The notes below the pieces were generated by a model that saw only the letters and a list, made by a program, of their open reading frames with translations, was not told the DNA's origin and did no database searches. This document shows positions 14,969 to 41,766 of a DNA stretch of 64,000 nt, piece by piece. Location: the NCBI RefSeq assembly GCF_000724625.1, contig NZ_CP007139.1, positions 4,960,001 to 5,024,000 on the forward strand, in the 5' to 3' direction. Position 1 is the first letter of the stretch; every line of letters begins with the position of its first letter. The stretch comes from Fimbriimonas ginsengisoli Gsoil 348. Lineage in GTDB: Bacteria > Armatimonadota > Fimbriimonadia > Fimbriimonadales > Fimbriimonadaceae. The position numbers were made by a program, and so were the translations under genes.

Positions 14969-15071
14969 GTAGCATCGGCTCCCAGCCGATGAACCCCACG
15001 ACCCTCCGGGTCGTGTGAATCCGCCAAGGGCAGGATGCCCTTGGGACCCACTGGCAAGATGCCAGTGCCAC
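14969..15071. repeat. GTAGCATCGG-family composite repeat
   Basis: Four stacked hairpin units: ATCGGCTCCCAGCCGAT (14973-14989), ACGACCCTCCGGGTCGT, CCAAGGGCAGGATGCCCTTGG and ACTGGCAAGATGCCAGT, ending at GCCAC (15071). The downstream gene's stop codon begins on the very next base. Copies or fragments occur at 17038, 34036, 40031, 41703 and 48731. Confidence 0.85.
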
Positions 15072-37696: not shown

Positions 37697-37938
37697 CGAT
37701 CCGTCCCCATTCTGACCGAGAGGACGGCAATGAAGACGTTGGACTCTCCGCCAAGGTTTCGTTTGCCGGCACGCCCGCCAACCCAGCCTAAAGGGCAGGT
37801 CGAAATACCTGTCGCGTGGAAATCGGCGTATGCTGGGAACAGACGTCGCCGCTGTCAGTGACGCGCGTGGTCGACGAAACACACGCGCTTCGCGCGCCGC
37901 GCTGTGACGACGCCGAATCCCCAAGGGAGGGTGACAAG

Positions 37939-40023
37939 GTGAAACAATATTCCCCCGATAAGATTCGTAATGTGGCCATTGTAGGCCACGGCGGTGCGGG
38001 CAAAACGATGCTCGTGGAACACTTGCTCTACACCGCCGGAGCGACCGACCGGGTTGGCAGCGTGGACGCCGGGAACACGCAGAGCGACTACGACCCACTC
38101 GAAATCCGGCGAAAGATCTCGCTCAACGCGAGCATCGTGCCGATCGAATGGCACGGCTGCAAAATCAACCTCATCGACGTCCCGGGCTATCCCGATTTCA
38201 TAGGAGACCTCCACGGAGTAGCCCGAGTGGTCGAGTCGATGATCATCGTTTGCGAGGCGAAGCGCGACCTCGACGTGGGCTTTGACCTGGCCTTCGAAGT
38301 CGCCCAAGAGCACGGCCTCGCCACCTGCATCTTCGTCAACAAACTGGAGCGGGACAACGCCGACTTCGAGGGGCTGATGGAGACGCTTCACGAGCGGTTC
38401 GGCCGCAAGGTGGTCAGCACCCAGATCCCGATCGGCCACCAAGCCGCCTTCAGCGGAGTCCTCGACCTGCTGAATATGAAGGTTTACAAAGGAAAAGACC
38501 GCGGCGTCGAGATCGAGGAAGTCCCTTCCGGCTACACCGAGGAAGCGGCCGAGCGGCGCGACAAAATGATGGACGCCGCCGCCGAAGGCGACGACGACCT
38601 CGCGATGAAGTACCTCGAGGGCGAGTCGCTTTCCGAAGAAGAGATCGAGCACGGGCTGCTCGTAGGAATCGAGACCGGCCGCGTCATCCCGGTCCTCGTC
38701 GGATCCGCGATGAGCGGAATCGGAGTCGCGACCCTTCTCGACCGGATTTGCGGCGAGCTTCCGTCGCCGATCGACCTCCCGAAGATGGTCCCGACGCCCG
38801 ACGGCGAATCCATCAAGATCGAGACCGATCCCGCCGGACCGCTGGCCGCGTTCGTATTCAAAACCACCGCCGACCCGTTCGTCGGAAAGATCAACTTCAT
38901 CCGCGTCTTCAGCGGCACCCTCAAGGCGGACCAGCACGTCCTGAACGTCAACCGCGAGTCCGACGAGCGCGTGCACAACCTCTTCTATCCCCACGGAAAA
39001 GGCCAAGAGAACGCGACCGAGGTCGTCGCCGGCGACATCGCCGCCGTAGCCAAGCTCGCGCACACCCACACCGGCGACACACTGAGCACCGCGAAAGACC
39101 GGATCATGCTCCCGCCGATCAACTTTCCCGAGTCGATCTACCGCGTGGCGATCGTTCCGGTCACCAAAGCCGACGAGGACAAGCTCGGCACCGCCCTCGG
39201 CCGGCTGCTGGAAGAGGACCCCACGCTTCGGCACACTCGAGATACCGCGACCCACCAAGAGATCCTGGAAGGAATGGGCGATATCCACCTCGATACCGTG
39301 GTGGAGAAGCTCAAGGCAAAGTTCGGGGTTAACGTAAAGACCGAGGAGGCTCGGGTTCCCTACCGCGAAACCGTGAAGTCTCAGGCGAAAGCTCAAGGGC
39401 GTCACAAGCGGCAGACCGGCGGCAAAGGCCAGTTCGGCGACTGCTGGATCGAGCTCGAGCCGCTTGGGCGAGGCGAAGGGTTCGTATTCGAGAACAAAGT
39501 GGTCGGCGGCGCGATCCCGAAAAACTTCATCCCCGCCATCGAGAAGGGGATCCGCGAGGCGATGGACCACGGCCTCGTCGCCGGCTACCCAGCCGTCGAC
39601 CTAAAGGTGATCGTCTATGACGGGAGCTACCACGACGTCGACTCGAGCGAAATGGCATTCAAAACCGCCGGCGCGCTCGCACTGAGGGCGGCGGCCGAGA
39701 AGGCGCAGCCGGTAGTTCTGGAGCCGACGCTCACCGTGGACGTGGATGTCCCCGACGAGTGCGTGGGAGACGTGGTGGGAGACCTGAACGGCCGTCGCGG
39801 CCGCCTCCAAGGCATGGACCCGATCGGCGCCGGCCGAACCCGCGTTCACGCATCGGTCCCCATGAGCACAATGACCCGCTACGCCCTCGACCTACGGTCG
39901 ATCACCAAAGGCCGCGGCCGTTTCTCCCAAAGAATCGACCAATACGACGAGATCCCCTACCCCGAGCAGCAAACCCTAATGGCCGAATACGCCAAACGCC
40001 GCTCCGCCGAGGCCGAACACTAA
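37939..40023 (+). CDS. Elongation factor G-like GTPase (EF-G paralogue)
   Basis: A 694-residue translational GTPase, using the GTG at 37939 behind AGGG; an earlier GTG (37816) adds residues unlike the family. G1 is GHGGAGKT at 16-23. The switch II motif, normally DTPGH, is DVPGYPDF at 80-87, so the catalytic His is replaced by Tyr. G4 is NKLE rather than NKxD. Domains III-V are present (RVPYRETV, ITKGRGRFSQRIDQYDEIP). These changes occur in the EF-G-like/FusA2 group, whose role is not settled. A canonical fusA probably exists elsewhere, because ribosomal genes here are not adjacent. Confidence 0.88.
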   Translation: MKQYSPDKIRNVAIVGHGGAGKTMLVEHLLYTAGATDRVGSVDAGNTQSDYDPLEIRRKISLNASIVPIEWHGCKINLIDVPGYPDFIGDLHGVARVVESMIIVCEAKRDLDVGFDLAFEVAQEHGLATCIFVNKLERDNADFEGLMETLHERFGRKVVSTQIPIGHQAAFSGVLDLLNMKVYKGKDRGVEIEEVPSGYTEEAAERRDKMMDAAAEGDDDLAMKYLEGESLSEEEIEHGLLVGIETGRVIPVLVGSAMSGIGVATLLDRICGELPSPIDLPKMVPTPDGESIKIETDPAGPLAAFVFKTTADPFVGKINFIRVFSGTLKADQHVLNVNRESDERVHNLFYPHGKGQENATEVVAGDIAAVAKLAHTHTGDTLSTAKDRIMLPPINFPESIYRVAIVPVTKADEDKLGTALGRLLEEDPTLRHTRDTATHQEILEGMGDIHLDTVVEKLKAKFGVNVKTEEARVPYRETVKSQAKAQGRHKRQTGGKGQFGDCWIELEPLGRGEGFVFENKVVGGAIPKNFIPAIEKGIREAMDHGLVAGYPAVDLKVIVYDGSYHDVDSSEMAFKTAGALALRAAAEKAQPVVLEPTLTVDVDVPDECVGDVVGDLNGRRGRLQGMDPIGAGRTRVHASVPMSTMTRYALDLRSITKGRGRFSQRIDQYDEIPYPEQQTLMAEYAKRRSAEAEH

Positions 40024-40030
40024 GTAAGAA

Positions 40031-40345
40031 TCGTGGCACTGGCTTCCAGCCAGTGGGTATCACGACCATCCCGGTCGTGTGAAAAGGCCAAGGGCAGGCT
40101 GCCCTTGGGACCCACTGGCTAGAAGCCTAATGCCATCCAGTTTTTGCCCTGACGAACCCTCGGAGAATACAAACACAGAGGCACAGAGACACGAAGGCAC
40201 GGAGTTCTTGGCAATTGGACGTGCGGATGGGGCAAACGCCGACCGGATCTTTGTGTCTTTGTGCCTTGGCGCCTTTGTATTAACTCCGGACGGAAGGTTC
40301 GTTCGAAAAACTGGATGGCATTAGGCTGGAAGCCAGTGCCACGCT
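40031..40345. repeat. GTAGCATCGG-family composite split by a 204-base element
   Basis: GTGGCACTGGCTTCCAGCC (40033) starts a set of hairpins (ACGACCATCCCGGTCGT, CCAAGGGCAGGCTGCCCTTGG) ending at ACTGGCTAGAAGCC (40114-40127). The hairpin resumes at GGCTGGAAGCCAGTGCCACG (about 40324-40343), after an inserted element. Its end touches the last codons of the GNAT gene. Confidence 0.75.
40124..40327. mobile_element. 204-base element with 22-base perfect terminal inverted repeats
   Basis: Ends AGCCTAATGCCATCCAGTTT (40124 on) and its exact complement (to 40327) match over 22 bases. Inside is a second imperfect palindrome: CACAGAGGCACAGAGACAC (about 40174) against GTGTCTTTGTGCC (about 40254), and ATACAAAC against GTTTGTAT-like sequence. 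It has no coding capacity. It sits in the loop of another repeat's hairpin, so it resembles a MITE or a REP-like hairpin element. Whether it moves is unknown. Confidence 0.6.
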
Positions 40346-40766
40346 ACACCCGATTCAGCCAAGCGCCTTCTACCCTCGCCATACCGTTCGGATGCGGGTG
40401 GAAGCCGAGCTTCTCGTAGAAATCGACGAGGTCGTCGTCGGCCTGCAAGTAGACGTGCTGACCGGGGACCGATCCCACGAGGTTCGACAGGATCGTCCGG
40501 GCGATTCCGCGCCTGCGGAAATTCGACGATGTCCACATGTCGACCAAGTAGGCGTTGCAGACGCTGTCGCTCAGCAAACGTCCCTTCCCGACTACCTGCC
40601 CGTTCACGCGGGCAAAGCAGACCACGTGACTGTTCTCAAACGACCGCCTCAGTTCGTCCGGAGTGCGCCCGTTGCTGAAGTCGTCAGCAATGAGCGACCG
40701 GGTCAACGCCTCCCAGTCGACTCCTTCCGCATCCATTTGAAACTTAATTTCCCGATCCATTGCCAT
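40344..40766 (-). CDS. GNAT-family N-acetyltransferase
   Basis: A 140-residue GNAT enzyme that transfers an acetyl group from acetyl-CoA. The start may be the ATG at 40764-40766 or 40758-40760. Motif A is YLVDMWTSSNFRRRGIARTILSNLV, with the RRRGIA acetyl-CoA pyrophosphate-binding turn. The C-terminal DDLVDFYEKLGFHP is also typical. It has no signal. The substrate is unknown. Its 3' end touches repeat DNA. Confidence 0.88.
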   Translation of the reverse strand: MAMDREIKFQMDAEGVDWEALTRSLIADDFSNGRTPDELRRSFENSHVVCFARVNGQVVGKGRLLSDSVCNAYLVDMWTSSNFRRRGIARTILSNLVGSVPGQHVYLQADDDLVDFYEKLGFHPHPNGMARVEGAWLNRV

Positions 40767-40924
40767 CAACGTAGCTCATTTGCGATTTCGCGAATACGCC
40801 GACCGCAGGGCTAATGGCGCCACGTTGCCAAAAAATCAGTCGCACTGATACGACATCGGAAATGGTTCGTCTAACCCCTCAGAAGCAGCGGTGAACACAA
40901 ATTCAGCGCTCGAAGGGAAATACT

Positions 40925-41702: not shown

Positions 41703-41766
41703 ACGTAGCATCGGCTCCCAGCCGATGAGCCCACGCAGGTTCATCGGCTGGGAGCCGATGCTACGT
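41703..41766. repeat. 26-base perfect inverted repeat, GTAGCATCGG family
   Basis: 41703-41728 is the exact inverse complement of 41741-41766, with a 12-base loop. The arm begins ACGTAGCATCGGCTCCCAGC. The SDR stop codon starts on the next base (41767). It may terminate both this gene and the Arg/Asp-rich gene. Confidence 0.9.

Follow-up and report, generated by a model that had tools for sequence, protein, structure and literature searches.

A window of 64,000 nucleotides from the chromosome of Fimbriimonas ginsengisoli Gsoil 348 contains, between two convergent genes encoding an elongation factor G-like protein (37816-40023, plus strand) and a GNAT acetyltransferase (40344-40769, minus strand), one palindrome lodged inside another. 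The original prediction described a 204-base palindromic element with perfect 22-base inverted ends and internally paired motifs. Both symmetries are present. The segments 40124-40145 and 40306-40327 are perfectly reverse-complementary (22 of 22 positions by sequence check), and the inverted symmetry continues with few mismatches into the flanks, giving arms of 33 nt (40113-40145 and 40306-40338) with 91% complementarity. Further inside, an array of CACAGAG-like octamers (consensus CACRRAG), CACAGAGG-CACAGAGA-CACGAAGG-CACGGAG at 40174-40204 (plus strand), faces its inverted partner CTTTGTGTCTTTGTGCCTTGGCGCCTTTG at 40249-40277 (minus strand) across a spacer of 44 bp, and the four matches of CACRRAGDCACRRAG in the window, where 0.02 would be expected, all lie inside the nested element. 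A folding energy of -186.4 kcal/mol was computed for 40028-40350, against a shuffle mean of -109.6 (z -14.6), and none of 100 shuffles was as good. The search of the window for structured RNA families returned a tRNA as its sole hit and no rRNA family. This copy forms a very strong hairpin between convergent genes, which might terminate or protect both transcripts.

The outermost layer is a REP doublet of about 105 bp with a GTGG tag. It comprises a first GTGG-tagged hairpin with the stem CACTGGCT / AGCCAGTG (40032-40055), two inner hairpins that recur in other copies, CACGACC / GGTCGTG (40061-40079) and CCAAGGGCAG / CTGCCCTTGG (40088-40108), and a second REP hairpin whose 5' part (40113-40127) is interrupted by the insert, as comparison with empty copies reveals; the doublet ends with AGTGCCACG at 40335-40343. 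A BLAST search of 323 bases against the F. ginsengisoli genome gave 71 matches, many of them fragments of one place, and besides the window and a locus at 911k, 33 places matched query positions of about 5-108. These copies are doublets of inverted hairpins with the ends GTGGCA / TGCCAC and two inner hairpins. Among the best-scoring 22 of the 33, the second hairpin is uninterrupted in 21, and the remaining doublet (L047) is occupied by another MITE, whose ends are those of the window insert and whose core is different. When the insert and one duplication are removed from the window host, 105 bp remain, with which nine empty copies, all in identical orientation, agree at 91-94 positions. The host had previously been named as a GTAGCATCGG hairpin, an assignment that we reject on sequence, since the real host consists of CGTGGCACTGGCTTCCAGCCAGTG (40032-40055) and the partner end GGCTGGAAGCCAGTGCCACG (40324-40343). 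The GTAGCATCGG hairpins are a separate REP family of the window, with exact matches at 14969, 17074, 41705, 41755 and 48784 and REP hairpins at 14969, 17074, 41705-41764 and 48784.

The second layer is a MITE of 196 bp at 40128-40323. The proposed element of 204 bases was thus real, and its limits took in 4 nt of the duplication on each side. The MITE is bounded by 18-bp inverted repeats (TAATGCC..GGCATTA; TAATGCCATCCAGTTTT), the left one being TAATGCCATCCAGTTTTT (40128-40145, plus strand) and the right one lying at 40306-40323 (minus strand). On both sides follows an 11-bp target duplication, GGCTAGAAGCC at 40117-40127 and GGCTGGAAGCC at 40324-40334 (both plus strand), the two being equal at 10 of 11 positions. 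Seven near-full copies of the insert, 75-100% identical, were found in the genome (window, 911k, 2506k, 1599k, 3463k, 3865956 and 3300k), together with partial or diverged ones at 2816k, 3865654, 4927k, 1259k and 4397k. Two further loci, 2491k and 3052k, have the left end of the insert and a different core, and 3052k is without a good right end. The hairpins that host the copies are of three or more kinds. The element is therefore neither unique in the genome nor present in every hairpin of its host family (21 of the 22 inspected have no insert), and its description as a nested mobile repeat is supported by the further copies, the empty host sites and the target duplications. The copies at C1:3865654 and 3865956 belong to a direct tandem duplication with a period of 302 bp, and the decayed copy at C1:4397722-4397852 (L103) has a different palindrome, GTAGAGTAGGGGCGG..CCGCCCCTACTCTAC, at the centre of its arrays, a further level of nesting.

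Direct target duplications were scored in 17 of 18 candidate elements, one having no end pair. The total score was 118, compared with a permuted mean of -36.6 and a maximum of 25, and none of 2000 permutations reached the observed value. The duplications are exact over 10-13 bp in six of the 17 elements, and the target is mostly GGC-N4/5-GCC. Poor duplications were seen in five: 1599k (4 mismatches in 13), 3463k (3 in 11), G004_C19 (3 in 10), G004_C13b (2 in 9) and 3300k (8 bp only). Two of these, 1599k and 3463k, are in CCCC-N-GGGG hairpins and have inverted instead of direct flanks, which plain duplication does not explain. The whole insert is present in only one of 61 genomes, its own. The 18-base end, with up to two mismatches, has 15 matches in this genome, 15 in G004, a genome of the same genus, and at most three in every other genome of the 291 from the phylum. 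G004 carries a sister family with paired elements of 182-307 bp. The octamer dimer was found neither in these paired elements nor in twelve stretches from G004 and G019, where short end pairs were all that was seen.

The ends and duplications suggest the kind of enzyme that moved the MITE. According to PMC2266710 (Table 1), elements of the IS4 subgroup carry the end signature -AATR--------WTW---- and duplicate 10-13 bp of the target. The signature fits 22 of the 22 element ends found, of which the WTW part alone is an independent check because the ends had been preselected by AATGCCA. In both features the insert agrees with this subgroup and its derived MITEs, and some members of the subgroup are reported to have a marked insertion specificity (PMC2266710); it differs from them in having no transposase gene, a length of only about 196 bp, REP-like palindromes as targets and a CACRRAG hairpin as its core. 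No DDE_Tnp_1 transposase (PF01609) matched in the F. ginsengisoli genome, compared with matches in 9 of 14 control genomes, and thus the mover has been lost or went undetected. An IS4-type transposase would be the probable mover, presumably one now absent from this genome, a single 5.23-Mb chromosome for which just 12 transposase genes are reported (PMC4072686).

A RAYT or transposase gene matching the element had been suggested as something to look for. RAYT-like genes are present in the genome (13 matches to PF01797, five at E below 1e-15), and none was found that corresponds to the insert or its ends. The terminal inverted repeat of the MITE had no match near the PF01797 genes at 12 loci examined, and the insert was not found to have a hairpin with a GTAG-type tag next to a RAYT gene. 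One could still regard the insert as a REPIN- or BIME-like product of these enzymes, grown by the joining of several hairpins, rather than as a DDE-type MITE. RAYT-like genes do adjoin REP hairpins here, as at C1:2310916-2311254, which is flanked by CATCGGCT..AGCCGATG hairpins of the GTAGCATCGG type, host-type hairpins occur near some PF01797 loci, and the inverted flanks of 1599k and 3463k would suit such an origin. However, most copies, including those of another species, have 18-bp inverted ends and target duplications, the ends match the IS4-subgroup signature and IS200/IS605-type enzymes are not known to make such a target duplication. We regard this explanation as improbable. Another RAYT-like gene (C1:4494132-4494464, L337) stands amid many hairpins of the GAACCTC..GAGGTTC and CAACCCC..GGGGTTG kinds.

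The insertion of a MITE into a REP doublet is, in our opinion, firmly established. Insertion sequences that choose REPs are already known, among them ISPsy8, ISPa11, ISPpu9 and ISRm22 as described in PMC1525189; they insert into REP hairpins like the element studied here, and those are autonomous, whereas this one is a MITE with no known partner. The host doublet and the GTAGCATCGG hairpins, with RAYT genes adjoining, look like the REPs of the GTAG-tagged REP, REPtron and TIRtron systems, as far as these are set out in PMC3733652; the insert differs from them in that it has no GTAG tag and makes target duplications, and no RAYT gene was seen with its ends. As a form of REP-targeting insertion, an orphan IS4-subgroup-like MITE in REPs is new.

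The third layer is the CACRRAG core. A four-octamer pattern was scanned over a collection of named genomes, giving at least 120 stretches, of which 80 loci were examined. As had been predicted of the CACAGAG motif, it occurs in unrelated bacterial groups, the listed loci belonging by their titles to Planctomycetota, Proteobacteria, Verrucomicrobia-type bacteria, Gemmatimonadetes, Nitrospirae, Chloroflexi, Spirochaetes, Acidobacteria, Bacteroidetes, Lentisphaerae, Firmicutes and Actinobacteria. A reversed-pattern control (24 hits versus 25) tells nothing, since the reversed motif matches the same periodic arrays. With the strict pattern, an inverted octamer partner lies within 400 bp in 36 of the 80 listed loci. 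Neighbouring arrays were compared in 110 loci (these 80 and 30 from octamer-chosen genomes with a GxxExxY gene), and 72 pairs face each other while 28 face away. The facing pairs are spaced by 250 bp or less in 55 cases and by more in 17. Of these 17 wide pairs, 13 contain a GxxExxY gene, a proportion to be read knowing that loci taken for that gene supplied 11 of the wide pairs and that L201 and L253 are one place. The six wide pairs obtained from the repeat alone contain GxxExxY in two cases, an IVP gene (PF05635) in one and no recognised content in three. When the open reading frames of the 80 loci were clustered, the largest cluster (51 loci) proved to be translated repeat; GxxExxY came second, found in the examined stretch at 3 of the 80.

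GxxExxY proteins (TIGR04256) match PF13366, a PD-(D/E)XK nuclease family, and the D..ExK residues are conserved in 74 aligned sequences (D 0.97, E 1.0, K 0.97). The gene was found in 35 of 50 octamer-chosen genomes, in 42 of 274 evenly drawn genomes from the class of G076 and in 10 of 61 relatives of the window genome. Since the set of 50 had been selected for the octamer, weight was put not on this census but on a framing test, in which the 150 bp to the left of the gene were aligned to the reverse complement of the 150 bp to the right and a score of at least 15 was counted as framed. The loci tested were the best-scoring matches of each search, and L279 and L289 among them look like one insertion. 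In the class of G076, a set not chosen for the repeat, 24 of 28 genes are framed, versus 1 of 162 shifted positions, with octamer-like arms in 15 of the 24. The corresponding figures are 22 of 29 versus 0 of 168 in the octamer-chosen set (octamer-like arms in 18), 4 of 14 versus 0 of 81 among the window relatives (octamer-like in all 4) and 3 of 4 versus 1 of 24 for plasmid loci (octamer-like in 1). Four further plasmid loci are not framed, which makes 3 of 8 plasmid records in total, and no GxxExxY gene was found in phages. An earlier, strict test that required octamers on both sides gave 8 of 30, 8 of 28 and 1 of 15, with 0 of 112, 1 of 108 and 0 of 54 for shifted positions, and it was replaced by the alignment because arms built from different repeats escaped it. 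Neighbour genes served as a control, and 15 of 229 reached the score; the 13 of these that were inspected all have arrays, and some of them are the GxxExxY or IVP gene itself. At octamer-selected loci, 15 of 478 neighbour genes reached it.

GxxExxY genes are thus associated with inverted short-repeat arrays, CACRRAG arrays among them, and the arms are matched within a unit and not between units: a score of at least 15 is obtained within the unit in 54 of 72 cases, and between units in 8% on average and 15% at most. By comparison with shuffles, the arms are periodic above the 95% level in 30 of the 54 framed units, with periods of 8-10, and not clearly periodic in the other 24. In Sphingomonas parapaucimobilis one such unit lies within the 464 bp that separate fabD and fabG. 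The same genes are 30 bp apart in Rhizobium indigoferae, and in S. paeninsulae a fabG-like start, read from the sequence as fabG is unannotated, follows fabD after about 32 bp. As these are different species, the comparison is a hint at insertion and not an exact empty site.

Genes of the 23S-IVP family (PF05635) outside rRNA turned out to be framed in a similar manner. They were taken as an intended control from the phylum of G077, in which 142 of 294 genomes were above the cut-off. CACRRAG arrays were found near none of the 30 IVP loci (L304-L333), apart from one stray match, and inverted arrays with repeat units unlike CACRRAG frame 20 of 27 genes, versus 1 of 162 shifted positions. The arms are periodic in all 20 (periods 7, 8, 9 and 14). 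One CACRRAG pair (L204:523-1066) surrounds an IVP gene in place of GxxExxY, and therefore one arm type can hold either gene. These units resemble the intervening sequences of 23S rRNA, such as that of Coxiella (428 nt, with a 28-bp stem and processed by RNase III; PMC4990558), in which an IVP gene lies in a long hairpin; the shared plan, as described there, is a long hairpin that takes the place of another hairpin's loop and has a single small gene in its own. The units described here differ in being outside rRNA, in having arms made of short tandem repeats and, for GxxExxY, in encoding another protein family. The window element itself showed no rRNA family hit and no IVP gene.

In the window core the arrays are present with no GxxExxY gene between them, only the 44-bp spacer, and at best it is a gene-free form of the unit. 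The shortness of this spacer could mean that the core is unrelated, a simple repeat of convergent origin that is contained in the MITE by chance. The absence of the octamer core from the twelve G004/G019 stretches, the framing of GxxExxY in only 4 of 14 loci among the window relatives and its presence at only 3 of the 80 listed octamer loci agree with that possibility. Against it, the F. ginsengisoli genome has an open GxxExxY gene framed by CACRRAG arrays (C1:1609802-1610155) as well as a similar gene-free hairpin at 3149k, and at several loci, for example L278 and L302, a framed gene and a gene-free hairpin share one repeat unit. We think mere convergence possible but rather unlikely. A comparable, lowish probability is given to the idea that the arrays are expression signals of GxxExxY genes, either terminators or RNase III stems, and that the gene-free hairpins are independent terminators with a similar sequence. 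Such hairpins are indeed the commoner form, 55 of the 72 facing pairs being at most 250 bp apart, and the position of the window copy between convergent genes suits a terminator. Against this idea, the arrays flank the gene on both sides in inverted orientation, they match within a unit (54 of 72) and differ between units (8% on average), a unit lies in a fabD-fabG gap of 464 bp that measures 30 bp in R. indigoferae, and one pair surrounds an IVP gene, as at L204.

Taking the three layers together, we consider it very probable that an IS4-subgroup-type MITE inserted into a REP-doublet hairpin between convergent genes, its core probably being a gene-free form of the GxxExxY unit now carried as a passenger. 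The transposase would act on the 18-bp ends and join them to a palindromic, GC-rich target some 11 bp long, which is duplicated; the target here is GGCTRGAAGCC, a REP stem-loop. Because the target is itself palindromic, the inverted symmetry extends from the MITE into the host. The anatomy shows that the MITE entered the REP doublet by end-specific transposition with target duplication. The CACRRAG core is common to the seven near-full copies and hence must already have been part of the MITE when its spread here began, and the G004 copies of the sister MITE are without it. The core may be a gene-free GxxExxY-unit form acquired by the MITE in this lineage, either as a bare hairpin or with a gene that was later lost inside the MITE.

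A broader proposal, to which we give slightly less than an even chance, is that GxxExxY genes and many non-rRNA IVP genes are the cargo of a broad, undescribed class of small mobile hairpin units, each with a single gene in its loop and with arms that are inverted arrays of 7-10-nt tandem repeats. GxxExxY and IVP units would then form one mobile class. Since the array sequence varies between units and the arms of each unit are matched, recognition would be by hairpin shape and not by sequence, and the GxxExxY protein, a member of a PD-(D/E)XK family, would be a candidate enzyme for cleaving its own unit at the hairpin or cruciform. The CACRRAG hairpins that contain no gene would be miniature forms, of which the window element may be one, captured by an IS4-type MITE and brought by it into REP hairpins. 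No report linking GxxExxY with inverted short-repeat arrays was found in a literature search to which most subscription journals did not contribute, so that novelty is only weakly indicated.

The window element illustrates cleanly how one insertion after another can nest palindromes, since host, insert and core can be distinguished, and the repeat of its core, which in many phyla frames a small nuclease-like gene, points to hairpin elements of a possibly widespread type. GxxExxY is a common, named and unexplained family, for which a testable rule across phyla is now available, namely its placement between matched inverted short-repeat arrays. If the units move, this would give the family a role and explain where a large class of intergenic hairpins comes from, and it would supply many testable relatives for the old idea of mobile 23S rRNA intervening sequences.

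Structure prediction for a GxxExxY protein with AlphaFold gave one model with a pLDDT of 70.9 and four others below 50. A Foldseek search with the model returned nothing at an E value of 0.001 or better, and the sequence search found no relative of solved structure. In F. ginsengisoli, a second GxxExxY copy (C1:1788326-1788672; L123, L125) is split and contains a stop codon, and octamer arrays are absent nearby.
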